DNA of 41,218 nucleotides, from the IMG/VR virus record IMGVR_UViG_3300035698_000220, positions 1 to 41,218 of that record. One strand, 5' to 3'. A program made the position numbers and the translations under genes. The stretch comes from a virus. The number at the start of each line of letters is the position of its first letter. Positions within the stretch are counted from its first letter, which is position 1. Of the stretch, positions 4,100-40,116 are shown in pieces. Under the pieces are notes generated by a model. The model was not told the origin of the DNA. It worked only from the letters and a program-made list of their open reading frames with translations, and searched no databases.

Positions 4100-4175
4100 T
4101 AGGGTGTAGCTCAGTTGGTAGAGTGGGAGACTGTTAATCTCCTTGTCGTAGGTTCGAGTCCTACCATCCTAGCCA
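4100..4175 (+). tRNA. tRNA-Asn (anticodon GTT), CCA encoded
   Basis: The cloverleaf is readable directly. The acceptor stem is TAGGGTG/CATCCTA with one G-T pair. The D arm contains GCTCAGTTGGTAGAGT, and the anticodon stem GGAGA/TCTCC carries loop CTGTTAA with GTT at 4133-4135. The T arm is GTAGG-TTCGAGT-CCTAC, the discriminator is G and the 3' CCA is encoded. It lies within the late transcript 22 nt before the terminase small-subunit start, so it must be processed out of the mRNA. Confidence 0.95.
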
Positions 4176-26363: not shown

Positions 26364-28082
26364 CTACTCACAGGTTCGTTTCCCAGTTTCCCAATCAATA
26401 GTACATGCAGCACCTTCTACCACATCCTCTACCTTGGACATGATACCGAAGCGTTTACCTGCCATTCTAAAAGTCGTTATACCCTTTGCCCTACCCTTCC
26501 AAGCATCTTCATAGATCTTCTTAAAGTCCTCCCAAAGTACCTCATCACCCACATTACAGGTCTTAGACACAGCAGAATCTACATAGGGTTGACATGCCAA
26601 GAGTACATCCAAGTGATCCTGGATAGTAACCTTGTCAGAGGTCTTCCCTTCTACACCGAAATGTCTATATCCGTAGTCTGGGACGTTGACTTCCCTGTCT
26701 CCTTCAGCAGTCTTGATGAGTCTCTTGGTGTTGTAGGCAAAGACTGGTTCGATAGAACTACTAACGTTATTAGCAGTAAGACTGATAGTCCCGCAAGGAG
26801 CAATACTAATAAGATGAGAATTACGTAGTCCATACTGTTCAATCCCTTCCCAGATCTTCTTAGGCAGACGTTGAATATAGGGTGAGTCTAGGTAGGCCTT
26901 ACGATATGCTGGGAACTTACCCTTCTCCTTTGCCAACTCAATAGAAGCTTTGTACGACTCATTCCGTAAGGTCTTCATGATCCCTTTCAGTACTGAGATG
27001 AACTCAGGAGAACCATAAGGGTGTCCAAGGGCCTCTAATGCGTTGGCTACCCCAGTCACACCCAGTCCCATACGACGCTTTGACTTCGCCTCAGCTTCCT
27101 GTTGCGGTAGTGGGTAGATAGTACTACCAATCGCGTTGTCCATGGCCCTGACAACATCTGGGATGTCCTTCTTGAGTTGGTCGAAGTCAAACCATGAAGA
27201 TCTCTCACCTTTATCGTCTACTTGGTAGTACTGTACATACTTAGTAAGATTGAAGGACCCAAGTAGACAAGCACCATAGGGTGGAAGTGGCTGTTCACCG
27301 CACGGATTACTTGTAGCAATTGTTTCACAATACTTAAGGTTGTTCTCCTCATTCATACGGTCAATAAAGAGCACCCCAGGCTCCGCCCAGTCCCATGTAG
27401 CCCTCATTAGTTCTTCCCACAGGGGTTTAGGGTCAATAGTCTCTACAACTTCACCCTCCCACATGAGATCGAATGAGTCACCTGTCTGTAGGGCCTCCAT
27501 GAACTTATCAGTCACCCCAACAGACAGGTTAAAGTGCCTTAGTTCCGTCTGGTTCTGCTTGGCTCTGATGAACTCTTCGATATCGGGGTGGTCCACACGA
27601 AGGACACCCATCTGAGCACCACGTCTGTTACCAGCAGAGGAGACAGTACTACAAACAGCATCGTAAATACGCATAAAGCTAAGAGTGCCAGAGGCGGAAC
27701 TATTAAGAGTACTAATATTACGCCCATTATAGCGTATAGTTGAGAAGTCATAGCCAATACCTCCACCTTGTTTCATAGTCAGTGCTGCTTCAGTCGCCTT
27801 GTCCATGATACCCTTCATAGAGTCTTCGATGGTACCTGACACGAAACAATTGAATGCTGTGGTACGTCTAGGTGACCCAATAGCCGACTGAACACGTCCC
27901 CCAGGAAGGAACCGCTGATCTAGTAGAATACTCCTGAAGGCACGGCGGTGCTCTTCCGAATCTCCAAGGGTAGCTGCCACTCTGTTCTGTGATTCATAGA
28001 AGGACTCTGCTTTTCCACGATATTTCTCCTTATGGATCTGTTCTGAGATCTCCAGAGTTGGGCCTTGTTGACTAGGCTGCAT
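26364..28082 (-). CDS. nrdJ: Class II (adenosylcobalamin-dependent) ribonucleotide reductase, 572 aa
   Basis: Reduces ribonucleotides to deoxyribonucleotides using a coenzyme-B12 radical. The active site is readable. C79 (TAFNCFVSG) and C272 form the redox pair; the NPCGE motif provides N259, the thiyl-radical C261 and E263; and C272 lies 11 residues after C261, as in the Lactobacillus enzyme. Other family blocks are FLPGGRVQSAIG, QGGGIGYDFS and NRRGAQMGVL. A C-terminal tail with C560 and C571 probably relays electrons. There is no partner nrdB, as expected for class II. Being monomer-sized (572 aa) is normal for phage forms. It implies a B12-containing host. Confidence 0.93.
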   Translation of the reverse strand: MQPSQQGPTLEISEQIHKEKYRGKAESFYESQNRVAATLGDSEEHRRAFRSILLDQRFLPGGRVQSAIGSPRRTTAFNCFVSGTIEDSMKGIMDKATEAALTMKQGGGIGYDFSTIRYNGRNISTLNSSASGTLSFMRIYDAVCSTVSSAGNRRGAQMGVLRVDHPDIEEFIRAKQNQTELRHFNLSVGVTDKFMEALQTGDSFDLMWEGEVVETIDPKPLWEELMRATWDWAEPGVLFIDRMNEENNLKYCETIATSNPCGEQPLPPYGACLLGSFNLTKYVQYYQVDDKGERSSWFDFDQLKKDIPDVVRAMDNAIGSTIYPLPQQEAEAKSKRRMGLGVTGVANALEALGHPYGSPEFISVLKGIMKTLRNESYKASIELAKEKGKFPAYRKAYLDSPYIQRLPKKIWEGIEQYGLRNSHLISIAPCGTISLTANNVSSSIEPVFAYNTKRLIKTAEGDREVNVPDYGYRHFGVEGKTSDKVTIQDHLDVLLACQPYVDSAVSKTCNVGDEVLWEDFKKIYEDAWKGRAKGITTFRMAGKRFGIMSKVEDVVEGAACTIDWETGKRTCE

Positions 28083-32091: not shown

Positions 32092-32168
32092 TGGTGAACA
32101 CGGTCGGACTTGAACCAACAACATTCGATTTAGAAGATCGACACTCTATCCAGTTGAGTTACGTGTCC
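32092..32168 (-). tRNA. tRNA-Arg (anticodon TCT), CCA encoded
   Basis: Read on the minus strand, the acceptor stem is GGACACG/CGTGTTC with one wobble pair and the D arm is ACTC-AACTGGATA-GAGT. The anticodon stem TCGAT/ATCGA carries loop CTTCTAA, giving TCT (reads AGA, possibly AGG). The T arm is GTTGG-TTCAAGT-CCGAC, the discriminator is A and CCA is encoded (32092-32094). AGA and AGG are the main Arg codons in most genes of the window, which fits a supply role. Confidence 0.94.
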
Positions 32169-33221: not shown

Positions 33222-34961
33222 TTAGTGAGTATCAGCCCACGATTGTCCTATCTTGTACTCAGCATCAAGGTCACACTTAAGATTCAGTTGAGTACCAGCG
33301 TCTATGATAGATTGTTTACAAATCTTACCAAGTTCTTCAGCATGCTCTGGTAAGACCTCCATCTGTATCTCGTCATGGATCCACCCAACCAGCTTCCAAT
33401 CAAGGTGCTTAGATCTATCAGCTAACAATATCATAGCCCTACGCATGATAACTGTTTCGCCATTCTGTAGTAAGGCTGCTAAGACATAGTAAGAGTCAGA
33501 TACAGGTACAATTCTACCATCAAGACCTTTAATGTATCCCTTCTTACTAATCTTTTCCCACTTCCTTTTGCATCTACCAAGGGCCTCAATCTTATTAAGG
33601 AAGTTATACTTTAGTTGGTTACCAAACTTCTGACCCTTACCATAGATAGCCCCTAGTCTGGCACCACCGGCCCCTAGTAAGAAGGCGTACAGGAAAGTCT
33701 TAGCATTATCTCTGGTTCCTATACCAATAACCTCTAAGTGACGAGTGTGTACATCTCCATGAGCAACCTCTTGAGCATAGTCAGAGTCGCCCATATAATT
33801 AGCAAGAACCCTAAGCTGAATCCCACTAGCATCGCAACCCAGTAGGACATACCCATCCGCAGAACGCCATAGTCCACGCATCTCTCGACCATACTCTTTG
33901 TCGTTGGCTGGTACCTGTGCTTGGTTTGGGTTACTGTGCGAGGCCCGGTGCGTCCATGTACCGATAGGCCATACCTTTGATCCGATTCTTCCATCTTTTC
34001 TACTGGCTCCTATCCAGTTCTGCAACATAGCTATACGTCTGTCTACCATGTCCCACTCAACCAACACAGCAGCCTCAGGGATGGTCTTACCTATCTCTTC
34101 CATCACCCACTCAGTCAGCTGAGGGTTACCCTTGTTAGTGAACTGCTTAGGTACCCACCCCATCCTTTGCAGGTGTCGGATGATAAAAGGATTAGAGTTG
34201 AAGTTAGGTTCAGGCCAAGTTACTTTGCTGAAGTTCCCCACAACATTAGTCCAATGATCATCAAGATACTTAAGACCCACTTTAGAGAGGGTACCATCGG
34301 CCTTGTACTTTGGCTCAACTTCTCTTTCAAAAGCAGGTAGTGAAACGAACACACCAAGTAGCTCACTATCAAGTTGTGCCTTACGCTGCGAGAGGGTGAC
34401 CAGTAAGTCATGCGCTTTCCTTTCGTTAAATGCCCAGCCATTGGTCTGGATCTGGTAGCATAGCTCAGCCACCCGGTGCTCAGTCCTTGATACTTCCTTG
34501 GGTACCTTGAACTTTGCCCAGTTCTTAATCAATACTTTGTAGAGTTTATGGTTAAGGTGTACGTCCTCAGTACATCTATGCAGCATCTCTGGAGAATAGA
34601 ACCCCCACTCATCATGCTCTACCTTTGGATACCCAAGGCGCTCACCCCATGCCTCTAATGAGTGACGCTTATGCGATGAATCTAGGACTTTGGAGACCAC
34701 CAATGTATCTACAATGTTCTTGAGAGGTACATGGTAGTCAAGGAGGCGGGCAAGGATAGGTACATCAAAGCAGATAAGGTTATGACCAATAAGGATACCT
34801 GCTTCTTCTAATGCCCATGCCTTGAAGTCCTTGACCTCCCCATCAATACACCCAGGCCCCCATTGGAACACAGCTTCAGTCTCAATATCCTTACAAACTA
34901 TACACCAGATTACTGTGGGGTCTAACCCATCACACTCAATGTCAATGATCAGTGACCTCAT
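33222..34961 (-). CDS. DNA polymerase, family A (T7 type) with 3'-5' exonuclease, 579 aa
   Basis: Replicates the phage genome. The exonuclease domain starts at once (IIDIECDG, D7 and E9) with HNLICFDVPIL (60-70). Polymerase motif A is DASGIQLR (377-384), motif B RDNAKTFLYAFLLG (417-430) and motif C HDE (529-531). Compared with E. coli Pol I and T7, the motif A Glu (E710/E480) is Gln382 and the O-helix Tyr at K+8 (Y766/Y530) is Leu429, while the K+4 residue stays Tyr425. Shorter than T7 polymerase; no obvious thioredoxin-binding loop. Overlaps the primase-helicase end by 20 nt. Confidence 0.94.
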   Translation of the reverse strand: MRSLIIDIECDGLDPTVIWCIVCKDIETEAVFQWGPGCIDGEVKDFKAWALEEAGILIGHNLICFDVPILARLLDYHVPLKNIVDTLVVSKVLDSSHKRHSLEAWGERLGYPKVEHDEWGFYSPEMLHRCTEDVHLNHKLYKVLIKNWAKFKVPKEVSRTEHRVAELCYQIQTNGWAFNERKAHDLLVTLSQRKAQLDSELLGVFVSLPAFEREVEPKYKADGTLSKVGLKYLDDHWTNVVGNFSKVTWPEPNFNSNPFIIRHLQRMGWVPKQFTNKGNPQLTEWVMEEIGKTIPEAAVLVEWDMVDRRIAMLQNWIGASRKDGRIGSKVWPIGTWTHRASHSNPNQAQVPANDKEYGREMRGLWRSADGYVLLGCDASGIQLRVLANYMGDSDYAQEVAHGDVHTRHLEVIGIGTRDNAKTFLYAFLLGAGGARLGAIYGKGQKFGNQLKYNFLNKIEALGRCKRKWEKISKKGYIKGLDGRIVPVSDSYYVLAALLQNGETVIMRRAMILLADRSKHLDWKLVGWIHDEIQMEVLPEHAEELGKICKQSIIDAGTQLNLKCDLDAEYKIGQSWADTH

Positions 34962-36567
34962 CAGTCTTCTCCTCAGTTTCTACTGTGTCCTCAGTTAACT
35001 CACTCAGTCTGCCTGTGTCTCTGTTGTAGTATACATGACTGGTCGGCCCTGTCAAGCCACTGAAGCGGTTCTTCAGTACCCTGATAAGAGTAGTATTAGC
35101 ATCAATAGGATCATCCGACTGTCCATTACGCTCAAGACCAAGGACCATATTAGAGAGTTGACCGATACCTGCAGTACCTCTAAGTTCCGACAGTGAAGTC
35201 TGTCCACCTTCCTCATGTGGCTTACCTGCTGGGCGCTTAGAGTGAGAGACAAGGATAAGAAGGATACCCAGTTCCATACAAAGTTTCTTAAGTTCAGTAG
35301 CAATTTCATCCAGTGCCTTCCTTTCATCACCACCATCCTGCCCCGACACCATGATACTGATGTGATCTAGGAAGATGATCTTACAGTCCAGTCCCTTTGC
35401 CATGTACCTGATGTGAGAACAGATACGATCCTTGCTCGACTCACCAAACCCATCGAAGTATGTTACCCGTCCCTTACCAAGTGTCTCATCATACACCCTG
35501 TCCCACTCCTGAGGACTGATGACTGTGTCGGGTAGATGCAGGGGTAGGTCAGCCTCAATGGACATCAGACCCTCACCAGAATCCTCTGGAGTCTCCTCAA
35601 TGAAGAAGCACCCGATGTTATAGTCAGTAGTCTTAAGGAAGTGGTGTTCTAGTTCTCTGAGGATCTGCGTCTTACCCATCCCTGACCCGGCAGTCAGTGT
35701 CCACATCTCAGATAGACGGAAGCCATAGGTCTTATCATCCAGTCCCTCCCAAGGACCAGGGATACACTCAACATTCTTCTTGTTCTTGATACGGTCTTTA
35801 AGGTCAGCACCATTGACCAGTCCATCAGGTAATCTTACTTCAGCCCTCCACCAGTGATCTGAGAACTCTTTCCACTTCTCACTGAGGAGGTAGTTACATG
35901 GGTCGTTCAGTATCTTGTCCAGCTTAACTACCTTGACCTTGGCAGGGAACAGTGCTGCAACTACATCAGCCGCAGCATTACCTGGCTCATCCTGATCGAA
36001 GCAGACGATGATGTTGTCGAAGGAGTCTAGCCATTGGTAGTTCAGCTTACATTCTTTCTCAGCGCCACTGGAGGCACGGATGGACACAACAGGGTACTTG
36101 GAACCCATCATCTGATACGCAGCCAGGGCATCCAGTTCCCCTTCAGTGATAGTGATATACCTACCCCCTTGACTGAATTTTTTCTGACCAAAAAGCTGTA
36201 GTTTCTTAGGGTCTCCCTCATTGTAGAATTCTTTTGAGGAGACAACACGGACCTTGTTAGCTGCCCATACCCCCTCCTGATTAGTGTAAGGGTAGTAGTG
36301 TTTACCATCCTTGACTGATACACCATAGAACTTGGCAGTATCTAAGGAGATCTTTCGATCCCCAATAGCCTGAGTAGTACCTACTGTGAGGTCGTGTGAC
36401 ATTATATTCTTTTCCTTCTTGTAATTAGGATCACTCTTTGTCCAATGCCTAGCCTTACAGACATAACAGAAGGTATGATCCTCATAGATTGCCATACCAT
36501 CAGATGAATCACAGTCAGGGCAGGGCTGATGAGTCTCCAGTGGTGCTTGGTCTTCATAGTCCTTCAT
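34942..36567 (-). CDS. DNA primase-helicase (T7 gp4 type), 541 aa
   Basis: Unwinds DNA and primes lagging-strand synthesis. The N-terminal zinc-binding domain has C16, C19, C34 and C37. The TOPRIM core shows TEGELDALAA (E142) and CFDQDEPG (D191, D193). After a linker, the RecA-like helicase has Walker A, GSGMGKT (294-300), Walker B-like IIFLDHIS, and LVSHSKRP. The acidic tail (TVETEEKTDEVTDH) resembles the gp4 C-terminus that touches polymerase. Complete in length. Its end overlaps the polymerase start, as expected for a replisome pair. Confidence 0.94.
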   Translation of the reverse strand: MKDYEDQAPLETHQPCPDCDSSDGMAIYEDHTFCYVCKARHWTKSDPNYKKEKNIMSHDLTVGTTQAIGDRKISLDTAKFYGVSVKDGKHYYPYTNQEGVWAANKVRVVSSKEFYNEGDPKKLQLFGQKKFSQGGRYITITEGELDALAAYQMMGSKYPVVSIRASSGAEKECKLNYQWLDSFDNIIVCFDQDEPGNAAADVVAALFPAKVKVVKLDKILNDPCNYLLSEKWKEFSDHWWRAEVRLPDGLVNGADLKDRIKNKKNVECIPGPWEGLDDKTYGFRLSEMWTLTAGSGMGKTQILRELEHHFLKTTDYNIGCFFIEETPEDSGEGLMSIEADLPLHLPDTVISPQEWDRVYDETLGKGRVTYFDGFGESSKDRICSHIRYMAKGLDCKIIFLDHISIMVSGQDGGDERKALDEIATELKKLCMELGILLILVSHSKRPAGKPHEEGGQTSLSELRGTAGIGQLSNMVLGLERNGQSDDPIDANTTLIRVLKNRFSGLTGPTSHVYYNRDTGRLSELTEDTVETEEKTDEVTDH

Positions 36568-37179: not shown

Positions 37180-37995
37180 TTATTCCAACTCACAGTCACC
37201 ATCAAGATTAAACCCACAGTCGTAGACTTCTGTGAAGTCTGGTTTAACCTCATACTCATAGACAGAGTGTTCAGACAAGGTATCCTTCTCCTGATCCATG
37301 TGTTCAGCGATCACCTCATAGCGACAGGCACGTCCCTTTGCGTTGTTGTAGTCAGTAGGGATGCTTACTACATCAGCAGGGTTAATCTTCACAATCATAG
37401 TGTGACCACGGTGTCCCCACATACCATTCAAGTACTCAATAGAACAGAAGTGTAGGCCGTGTGAGCAGGTGACGCTTGGGTCATCCTCAACACTGTTGCG
37501 TGGCATCTGACACACAGAACCTACTGAGTTGTCAAAGGTACCAGTGCGGTGATCCTTATAGTCACTACTCACATTCTTATAGGCAAGGAAGTGACCATCC
37601 GATGTGATAGGTAGACTGTTATGTTCAAGGAAACGATAGAGGTTATCAACACTCAACTTAGATGGATTGTCCATCAGGTTAGAGAGGAAGTTAACCATCG
37701 GCTGGATATCAAACCCTTCTGACATCATACTCAGGATACGTGTGGTCATAGAGTTATCCAATGGAGCATCAGCAAACCACACATTACCGTCATGGACAGA
37801 GATAAGACCCTGACCCACAAACTTAGACACAGCAGAGGCTAGGTCCATGGTGTCATTGAGTCCTGCAAAGTCCCCAATCTTTAGGTACTCAATAGCATCT
37901 GTCCAGTTGGGATTGTTAGAATGTAATACCTTTGTCTCATCTTGGAAGACAACAGTAAGGGTATCTTCAGTTAGGATATATGGAAAGTCATTCAT
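37180..37995 (-). CDS. rIIB-like protein, 271 aa
   Basis: Follows the rIIA-like gene as in T4. The sequence shows the family's features: an N-terminal strand region, a middle helix pair (SNLMDNPSKLSVDNLYRFLE) and LPITSDGHFLAYKNVSSDYK, then a Cys/His-rich segment, CSHGLHFCSIEYLNGMWG, and MIVKINPADVVSIPTDYNN. In T4, rIIA and rIIB prevent killing by the lambda Rex system; their roles in other phages are open. Acidic C-terminus. Confidence 0.82.
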   Translation of the reverse strand: MNDFPYILTEDTLTVVFQDETKVLHSNNPNWTDAIEYLKIGDFAGLNDTMDLASAVSKFVGQGLISVHDGNVWFADAPLDNSMTTRILSMMSEGFDIQPMVNFLSNLMDNPSKLSVDNLYRFLEHNSLPITSDGHFLAYKNVSSDYKDHRTGTFDNSVGSVCQMPRNSVEDDPSVTCSHGLHFCSIEYLNGMWGHRGHTMIVKINPADVVSIPTDYNNAKGRACRYEVIAEHMDQEKDTLSEHSVYEYEVKPDFTEVYDCGFNLDGDCELE

Positions 37996-38019
37996 GTCGA
38001 TGTTCCTCTATGTTAATAG

Positions 38020-40116
38020 TTATTTCAGTAGCAGTTTAACTTGTGCTTCGTAAGGTGTCAAGTCCCTTGTTAACTTCATGACTGACATAATCAAGGATAC
38101 TTCTTTACCTAGTTCAACCAACTGAGTCTCTAACATTTGGTTAGTGGTTGGTTCAATGTCCTTATAAGTTATCTCTAAGATACTTAGGTGTTCCTTTAAA
38201 GCCTCTTTAAGTTTTATGTAAGAGGAATAATGTTTGAAGGAATCAATGAAGGACTTCTTAGTACTAATTATACTGGTCCCCATGCACCATGTCAATAGCT
38301 TTTTAATAGCATCGTACTCATAAGCTTCAAAGGTTGATCTTAATACCTTATATTGTAGGAATTGTTTCTTAAGACACCGTGATTCCTTAGTCCTTTGAGC
38401 CTTGAGCTGGGCATGGTAGTCCTCAATACTCACCCAGACTGCTGAGTTTTTTTCAAGTGCCTTGTGGTAGGTACCTGGGACACAGAAGACAGTCAAGGGG
38501 TTCTTGTCCAGCTGCTCAATCTCCCTAAATAGATCTGAGTAGTGGTTGATAGACCCATCTACAGGTGAACCCTTCAGTGTCTTAATGGACACACCACCAT
38601 CCTCAAGATCATGATCAACATCAGTCTGATCAAAGAACCCCTTGTACTCCTTGAGCATTACCTTACTACGGGACTGACCAGTACTTGACTGGGTGATCTG
38701 GTACTTGGGTAGGTCTGAGGTCTTCCGATAGTCAGGGTACCCCAGAACCTTAAGCATCTCATCAAAGTCCCCTTGGGTACCATGTACTGTGATGATCGAC
38801 TTATTCCCAGGATCAATAACGTTCTCAAGGGCCCTCTTCTGCCAAGCTACCTTCTCATCCACATAGATCCACTCATAGTTCTTAAGATTATTACCGTAGA
38901 TTTCCCTGTCCTCATAGAACTTAGCCCAGGCCTCACCAGGATTTTGACAGGTCTTCAGGGTGATACCTTTAAGTTGACTGGTACTTAACTTACCTCCTCC
39001 ATAGTATTTGTTACTCCCCAAGATATTTTTATAGAACTCACCAACCTGAACACCCTTGTACTTGGTCCCTGTCTTGATAGCCCTGATGATATCCCCACCA
39101 AAGTCCATACTCTCAGTAACCTCAGTCAACTTAAGTAAAGCATTGAACATACTAGACTCTGATGAAATATCTTTCTGGGTCTGTTGAGTAATTTTACCAA
39201 CAATTTCTTGGAACTTACTGATGATGTTCGACTGTGTTACTTTGTTATATGATAGTTCTTCTCTGTTAGCAGCCACACCTAGTTCACCAATACTAAAGTC
39301 AATGAGTAGGTTACTGTTGAATAGACCCTTCATACCATCATCAATCAAGGAGTCTTCAAAGTGTTTAGACATGATAGGGTAGACAACATCACCCATCCGT
39401 GCCTTTGAAGTACTGTTGTGGCTACCAAAAGAATTATAGGAACGCTTAGCCTCCTTAAGTAACTTCCAACCCTTACCCTGGAGTACTACCTCATGATCTG
39501 TATATTGTAGGGGTACGTTGGTCTCAGGTCTGAGTCGGTAGTGTTGGAACAGAGTAGCAGCCTTCTGAATGAATGAGGCTGTGTCCCCGTGCTTAACAGG
39601 TACCTTGATGGTCAGCCCATTACCCTCCATGGTCTGATCAGTTTTCAATAGACCAATCTGCATCTCACCATCTTCATTCTTAAAGCATGAGTATGTACTG
39701 ATCACACCATTGAACCTGGACTCAATGACAAACTGATCAGTGTATGCAAAGGGACTCTTTGAACCCAGACCCAGCCCACCGATCAGTTCATTGGAGCCTG
39801 ACTTATCGCTGAGTCCATAGGTAGTGTACAGTTCCATCACTGCATCATGAGATAGACCTGGCCCATAGTCCTTGATCTGTAGTTCTGGTGAGAGCTGAGT
39901 GGGTAGGTTGACATGGATAGGCTCAGTACCCTTACCTACCTTGTGGTGGGCATCAGTGGCGTTACATGTAACCTCCCGGAGTACTGCCATGATCTTATCA
40001 GAGTACATCTTATCCGATAGGATACTCTGCATGTGTGCAGTGGCAGCAATCTTGAAAGAGTTCTGCTGTTGCACACCAGATGTTTTTAGTAGACGTTGTT
40101 CCTGTTCAATGATCAT
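38020..40116 (-). CDS. rIIA-like protein with GHKL ATPase domain, 698 aa
   Basis: The N-terminal 180 residues form a GHKL (Hsp90/MutL/topoisomerase) ATPase. The N box has E48, N52 and D55 (REVTCNATDAH), the G1 box is D83-x-G85-x-G87 (IKDYGPGLS), and the G2 box is around 113-121 (GGLGLGSKS). The rest is helical and divergent, ending with TRDLTPYEAQVKLLLK. The pairing with rIIB downstream supports the T4 rIIA relation. Likely binds ATP and acts in protection against host or prophage defences. Confidence 0.88.
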   Translation of the reverse strand: MIIEQEQRLLKTSGVQQQNSFKIAATAHMQSILSDKMYSDKIMAVLREVTCNATDAHHKVGKGTEPIHVNLPTQLSPELQIKDYGPGLSHDAVMELYTTYGLSDKSGSNELIGGLGLGSKSPFAYTDQFVIESRFNGVISTYSCFKNEDGEMQIGLLKTDQTMEGNGLTIKVPVKHGDTASFIQKAATLFQHYRLRPETNVPLQYTDHEVVLQGKGWKLLKEAKRSYNSFGSHNSTSKARMGDVVYPIMSKHFEDSLIDDGMKGLFNSNLLIDFSIGELGVAANREELSYNKVTQSNIISKFQEIVGKITQQTQKDISSESSMFNALLKLTEVTESMDFGGDIIRAIKTGTKYKGVQVGEFYKNILGSNKYYGGGKLSTSQLKGITLKTCQNPGEAWAKFYEDREIYGNNLKNYEWIYVDEKVAWQKRALENVIDPGNKSIITVHGTQGDFDEMLKVLGYPDYRKTSDLPKYQITQSSTGQSRSKVMLKEYKGFFDQTDVDHDLEDGGVSIKTLKGSPVDGSINHYSDLFREIEQLDKNPLTVFCVPGTYHKALEKNSAVWVSIEDYHAQLKAQRTKESRCLKKQFLQYKVLRSTFEAYEYDAIKKLLTWCMGTSIISTKKSFIDSFKHYSSYIKLKEALKEHLSILEITYKDIEPTTNQMLETQLVELGKEVSLIMSVMKLTRDLTPYEAQVKLLLK

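Follow-up and report, generated by a model that had tools for sequence, protein, structure and literature searches.

Three linked active-site substitutions in phage family A DNA polymerases and a possible relocation of the sugar-gate carboxylate

How does a replicative DNA polymerase choose deoxynucleotides when both residues credited with that choice are replaced? In family A polymerases the motif A Glu (E. coli E710) and the O-helix Tyr (E. coli Y766) are the textbook residues of fidelity and sugar selection; they have been called universally conserved (PMC4882331, PMC12220841) and reported to be hydrogen-bonded to each other (PMC4882331). In the Bst enzyme this Glu acts as a gate that keeps out the 2'-OH while hydrogen-bonding the 3'-OH of the dNTP, and its removal lowers ribonucleotide discrimination as well as nucleotide affinity (PMC7200780). 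A common marine-type phage group nevertheless does without both residues and carries a compensating third change. We came to this group through the polymerase gene of a viral DNA of 41,218 nucleotides (IMG/VR record IMGVR_UViG_3300035698_000220, positions 1 to 41,218), referred to here as the window. The features needed first are the following, with residues numbered as in the window protein and placed by an alignment of 15 sequences that includes T7:

33222 to 34961, minus strand: family A DNA polymerase of 579 amino acids with a 3'-5' exonuclease domain and a T7-like fold
34942 to 36567, minus strand: primase/helicase, directly upstream of the polymerase in the replication operon
33831 to 33833, minus strand: Asp377, the metal-binding Asp of motif A (T7 D475)
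33816 to 33818, minus strand: codon (CAG) of Gln382 in motif A, at the sugar steric gate (T7 E480, E. coli E710)
33687 to 33701, minus strand: O-helix Lys421 (T7 K522) to Tyr425 (T7 Y526, E. coli F762)
33675 to 33677, minus strand: codon of Leu429 at the end of the O helix (T7 Y530, E. coli Y766)
33369 to 33377, minus strand: His529-Asp530-Glu531, motif C (T7 H653-D654-E655)

A preliminary description of this gene had pointed out the Gln and the Leu and had placed them at the gate Glu and its partner Tyr, and the T7 alignment bears out both placements, along with the retention of the catalytic Asp, the Lys, the Tyr four residues after it and the HDE motif (D377, K421, Y425 and H529 to E531). 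Since a second IMG/VR contig encodes a polymerase that is 100% identical (a single-sequence search for close relatives returned these two loci only), Q382 and L429 are not sequencing errors. The enzyme belongs to the T7-type family A polymerases. It matches the Pfam profile DNA_pol_A (PF00476; 1.5e-27, 97 bits against a cut-off of 34.3) and PHROG 17, 'DNA polymerase' (1.3e-114), and its best solved relatives are structures of T7 gp5. The nearest fold to its AlphaFold2 model (mean pLDDT 91.7) is that of T7 DNA polymerase (2ajq; Z 38.4, rmsd 3.0 over 554 residues). O-helix R417 aligns with T7 R518, and of the proofreading acids D7 corresponds to D5 of T7, E9 to E7, D66 to D65 and D133 to D174. 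What it lacks among T7-type traits is the pair of motif A Glu and O-helix Tyr, which we take to be common rather than defining, since it is absent from 127 of the phage family A polymerases sampled.

The resemblance to T7 gp5 (PHROG 17) thus covers the fold, the exonuclease acids, the acids of motifs A and C, the O-helix Arg, Lys and Tyr526, and an operon shared with a primase/helicase. The two enzymes differ in length (579 against 704 amino acids), and the thioredoxin-binding thumb insert of T7 (residues 260-335, 76 amino acids) aligns with 50 window residues that bear no clear similarity to it. Besides the primase/helicase, the replication operon of the window holds endonuclease VII-like, single-strand binding, exonuclease and ribonucleotide reductase (RNR) genes. 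The terminase is 67.5% identical to that of Lentibacter phage ICBM3 and the portal 52% identical to those of ICBM2 and ICP2, so that the closest relatives by these two genes, a likeness rather than a formal assignment, lie in the Zobellviridae/Cobavirinae. We therefore regard the window polymerase, from its sequence, as the predicted replicative and proofreading T7-type enzyme of a cobavirus-like podophage. The same podophage carries RIIA- and RIIB-like genes (window 37180-40116), better known from T4-like phages.

Is the double change a peculiarity of this phage? In what follows, letters separated by strokes give the residues at positions 382/429, or 382/429/502, so that Q/L/E stands for Gln, Leu and Glu. 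A scan of IMG/VR with a motif A pattern containing Gln, the O helix being left unconstrained, returned at least 120 stretches, and when the pooled sequences were read, Gln occurred with Leu in 120 and with Phe in 3 among the matches listed. The Q/L pair is present in more than 100 viral contigs, and among named cobaviruses in SIO1 and ICBM3. In a collection of cellular genomes, patterns that left position 429 free gave 74 E/Y, two Q/L, one E/F and one Q/F sequence, and one that was unreadable. The whole viral collection was scanned with two exclusion patterns at the commonest spacing of motif A to O helix, 36 residues, other spacings being sampled only. At that spacing Gln with Tyr had zero matches, and Glu with either Leu or Phe had 82, every one of them Phe. 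As controls, the Glu and Tyr version recovered 82 of the 84 E/Y sequences with spacing 36 among the fetched loci, and the Gln/Leu version recovered the window polymerase. The natural states are thus E/Y, E/F, Q/F and Q/L, with neither E/L nor Q/Y among them, and the suggestion that the joint change is a clade trait, to be checked by alignment for co-variation, holds: Gln382 is never found with Tyr429, nor Glu382 with Leu429. A marine phage group (L224, L291 and related loci) has the motif A Glu with an O-helix Phe, apparently an intermediate, as in DpoZ of phiVC8.

The two-site observation, real and correctly placed as it is, was incomplete, for it missed a third site that changes with both. 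Position 502 was found by ranking alignment columns on how cleanly they separate Gln from Glu sequences:

33456 to 33458, minus strand: codon of Glu502 in the Q helix, the third coupled site (T7 G618; E. coli A852 through an alignment of cellular Pol I)

This position lies three residues past T7 Q615, the conserved Q-helix Gln, whose equivalent in Taq, Q754, is reported in contact with the template strand (PMC6345897). The window polymerase accordingly has Q, L and E where T7 has E480, Y530 and G618. In the model Q382 begins the helix that follows the strand of motif A, L429 lies just past the O helix (417-428) and E502 sits inside a long helix (490-516). Among cluster representatives, 20 of 20 Gln382 sequences have Glu502 and 63 of 63 Glu382 sequences have Gly502; when all sequences read are counted, near-duplicates included, Glu502 is present in 127 of 127 Gln382 enzymes, and Gly or Ala in 274 of 274 phage-type enzymes with Glu382. 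The three substitutions are strictly linked. The first alignment had also suggested coupling for the THR motif, in which the Gly preceding R339 becomes His, but this was discarded, many Gln sequences keeping TGR.

Cellular enzymes qualify this picture. Across 80 loci that encode cellular Pol I or other family A polymerases, position 502 is mostly Ala and sometimes Gly, Gln, Thr, Ser or Asn, and no classical Pol I among them carries the Gln or the Leu of the variant. Four Pol I sequences of Patescibacteria (L473, L476, L478, L488) have Asp where E. coli has E710, so the universal conservation that has been stated does not hold even among cellular Pol I enzymes. In a fifth Patescibacteria Pol I (L415) Glu502 occurs alongside the motif A Glu and the O-helix Tyr, so that Glu502 and the classical pair do not strictly exclude each other. 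The rule is one-sided: motif A Gln is seen only with Glu502, and Glu502 alone is possible.

The Q/L/E triad is shared with Roseobacter phage SIO1 and Lentibacter phage ICBM3 (Zobellviridae, Cobavirinae), whose terminases are about 67% identical to that of the window; the polymerases themselves are about 35-37% identical, and that of the window cannot be assigned to their clade with confidence. Citrobacter phage CVT22, Klebsiella phage Klyazma and Vibrio phage 172P1 (Zobellviridae) have motif A Gln and Glu502 like the window, but at position 429 they carry Phe, not Leu. Vibrio phage ICP2, the portal relative, was considered as a further example of the Q type, and its polymerase proved to be a classical Glu/Tyr enzyme.

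It is conceivable that one ancestor fixed unrelated active-site changes and that the linkage reflects shared descent. Indeed, most Gln sequences form one clade, possibly together with the Zobellviridae Q/F group. However, on trees built without the trait columns Gln requires three to four changes, and in an approximately unbiased (AU) test (43 rows, a simple model, groups named after the tree was seen) holding all Gln sequences together was rejected (AU p = 0.0005), as was joining the L155 lineage to the main Gln clade (AU p 0.0002). Joining the main clade to the window (AU p 0.39) or to the Zobellviridae Q/F group (AU p 0.29) was not rejected, and the main clade may share an origin with the Q/F group. 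The Q type arose independently at least twice, and perhaps up to four times, each time with Glu502 and without Tyr429. With so few independent origins a tree-aware sign test cannot reach significance. Two loci stand out by how their polymerase genes match L155: in each the match extends over about 2456 bases (L410 2311-4766, L411 3001-5456) and its halves lie in separate open frames, which suggests an intron or other insert in these polymerase genes.

A natural near-isogenic pair bears on the same point. The polymerase genes concerned are:

L385, 3001 to 4674: Q/F/E, 99.9% identical to L386 from another sample
L387, 2 to 892: E/Y/G, from the same sample as L385 and 90% identical to L385 and L386 over 295 residues

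Their 295 shared codons differ by 29 amino acids, all within residues 329-422 and 477-480 and including the coupled sites; the chance that three given sites are all among the 29 differences is 0.0009. These two divergent tracts cover motif A to the O1 helix, plus the Q-helix site, and the other shared polymerase sequence is almost identical, while the genes downstream of the L385 and L387 polymerases differ by about 5-12%. That the divergence is limited to two short tracts in one gene suggests that the coupled parts were exchanged by recombination or gene conversion, although the pattern may be an assembly artefact. The L385 tract is 61-69% identical to E/Y/G relatives and 47% to the main Gln clade; being nearer the former, it did not come from that clade, and the change is convergent. 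A switch of all three sites on a nearly identical background, and the rejection of a single origin, refute shared descent as the full explanation and leave it scarcely credible.

What, then, do the three residues do together? The preliminary description proposed altered sugar discrimination or fidelity, that is, that Gln382 and Leu429 relax the sugar and base-pair checkpoint and alter rNTP/ddNTP selectivity or fidelity. Both residues are indeed changed, mutators are known at E710 as well as Y766 (PMC4882331), and removal of the gate carboxylate in Bst E658A lowers ribonucleotide discrimination (PMC7200780). However, the proposal is weakened by the compensating Glu502, gained by every Q-type enzyme (127 of 127). 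Moreover, the set recurs independently, which argues for a conserved rather than an abandoned function, and the Q/L clade has many members and is common among marine phages, whose replication presumably hinges on this polymerase. We consider a simple loss of the gate unlikely.

A more attractive explanation, and one that we regard as fairly probable, is a relocation: the gate carboxylate would have left motif A and would now sit on the Q helix of the palm, the hydroxyl of the O-helix Tyr being lost along with the move. When a dNTP comes in, its 2'-carbon would be screened and its 3'-OH held by the carboxylate of Glu502 rather than by that of a motif A Glu, and Gln382 would fill the old gate site without a second negative charge. 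With the Glu-Tyr hydrogen bond gone, the Tyr hydroxyl would become dispensable and Phe or Leu could occupy position 429. The Q helix follows the minor groove beside the insertion site in family A structures. From this general architecture Glu502 could plausibly reach the sugar pocket, and we infer that it may point into this pocket and take over the gate role. An order E/Y, E/F, Q/F, Q/L with Phe as a neutral bridge, and the absence of Q/Y and E/L, fit such a mechanism. If the carboxylate is relocated, deoxyribose selectivity would probably be retained or re-tuned and not simply lost. In the literature within reach, mostly open-access papers, we found no description of a Glu relocation, nor biochemistry of any Q-type enzyme. 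According to a 2026 preprint, natural polymerases with another O-helix change, Leu at T7 position 526, should carry compensatory changes (PMC13228545); the window polymerase differs from those enzymes in having Tyr there.

Several observations speak against relocation: cellular Pol I shows various residues at position 502, L415 has Glu502 together with the classical Glu and Tyr, and other changes of the main Gln clade, such as the loss of Asn495 (T7 N611), could be the real driver. This last point leads to an explanation by packing or charge in which no gate function is involved: Glu502 would have arisen for another reason, for example a primer/template minor-groove contact after the loss of Asn495, and Gln382 would avoid repulsion by Glu502 or pair with it. 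In line with this, the main Gln clade also lacks Asn495, and no sampled phage sequence has both carboxylates together. On the other hand, the independent L155 lineage has kept Asn495 and yet has Q382 and E502, the constant loss of Tyr429 is left unexplained, and L415 tolerates both carboxylates. Such epistasis is a serious but rather doubtful alternative to relocation.

It is also possible, though very improbable, that the changes adapt the enzyme to unusual nucleotides, either modified bases or a special dNTP pool such as a phage RNR might provide. DpoZ of Vibrio phage phiVC8, a 2-aminoadenine user, has Phe at the Tyr position (PMC8599892), and RNR genes are frequent in Q/L phages. DpoZ has thus lost the O-helix Tyr as the window polymerase has, but to Phe, and in a phage with a 2-aminoadenine genome it keeps the motif A Glu and has Ala at 502, where the window has Gln and Glu. 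A PurZ-type adenylosuccinate synthetase (PF00709) had no match in any of the 46 records searched, that of the window included, and we dropped the idea that the window is a 2-aminoadenine (Z) phage, there being no sign of the pathway. The RNR of the window is the following:

26364 to 28082, minus strand: ribonucleotide reductase large subunit

RNR genes are present in 19 of 21 Q/L records, in 9 of 11 E/F records and in 14 of 19 E/Y records from IMG/VR, the last mostly fragments. They are therefore common in E/Y marine phages too, and the RNRs of Q/L records differ clearly in how they match PF02867, both strong and weak matches occurring. The records consequently give no support to the earlier idea of a link, as a specific one, between the paired change and dNTP supply by the phage RNR.

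The three substitutions thus form a variant of the family A active site that is real, widespread and strictly linked. More tentatively, and with our opinion almost evenly divided, we propose that the sugar-gate carboxylate is evolutionarily mobile, having moved from motif A to the Q helix at least twice with loss of the partner Tyr each time, and that it would constitute a second natural architecture for nucleotide selection, which closely related phages could exchange in the form of two short tracts. The natural double and triple mutants, including the 90%-identical pair, suit tests of how family A polymerases choose deoxynucleotides, and Q-type polymerases are new starting enzymes for polymerase engineering.

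The window holds a few further elements. A tRNA-Arg(TCT) lies at 32092-32168 on the minus strand, within the replication gene cluster, and a tRNA-Asn(GTT) at 4100-4175 on the plus strand, just upstream of the packaging genes. A short open reading frame at 29733-30122 matches PHROGs named NAD synthetase and homing endonuclease; it lies next to the RNR region and is probably a mobile gene of the HNH type.
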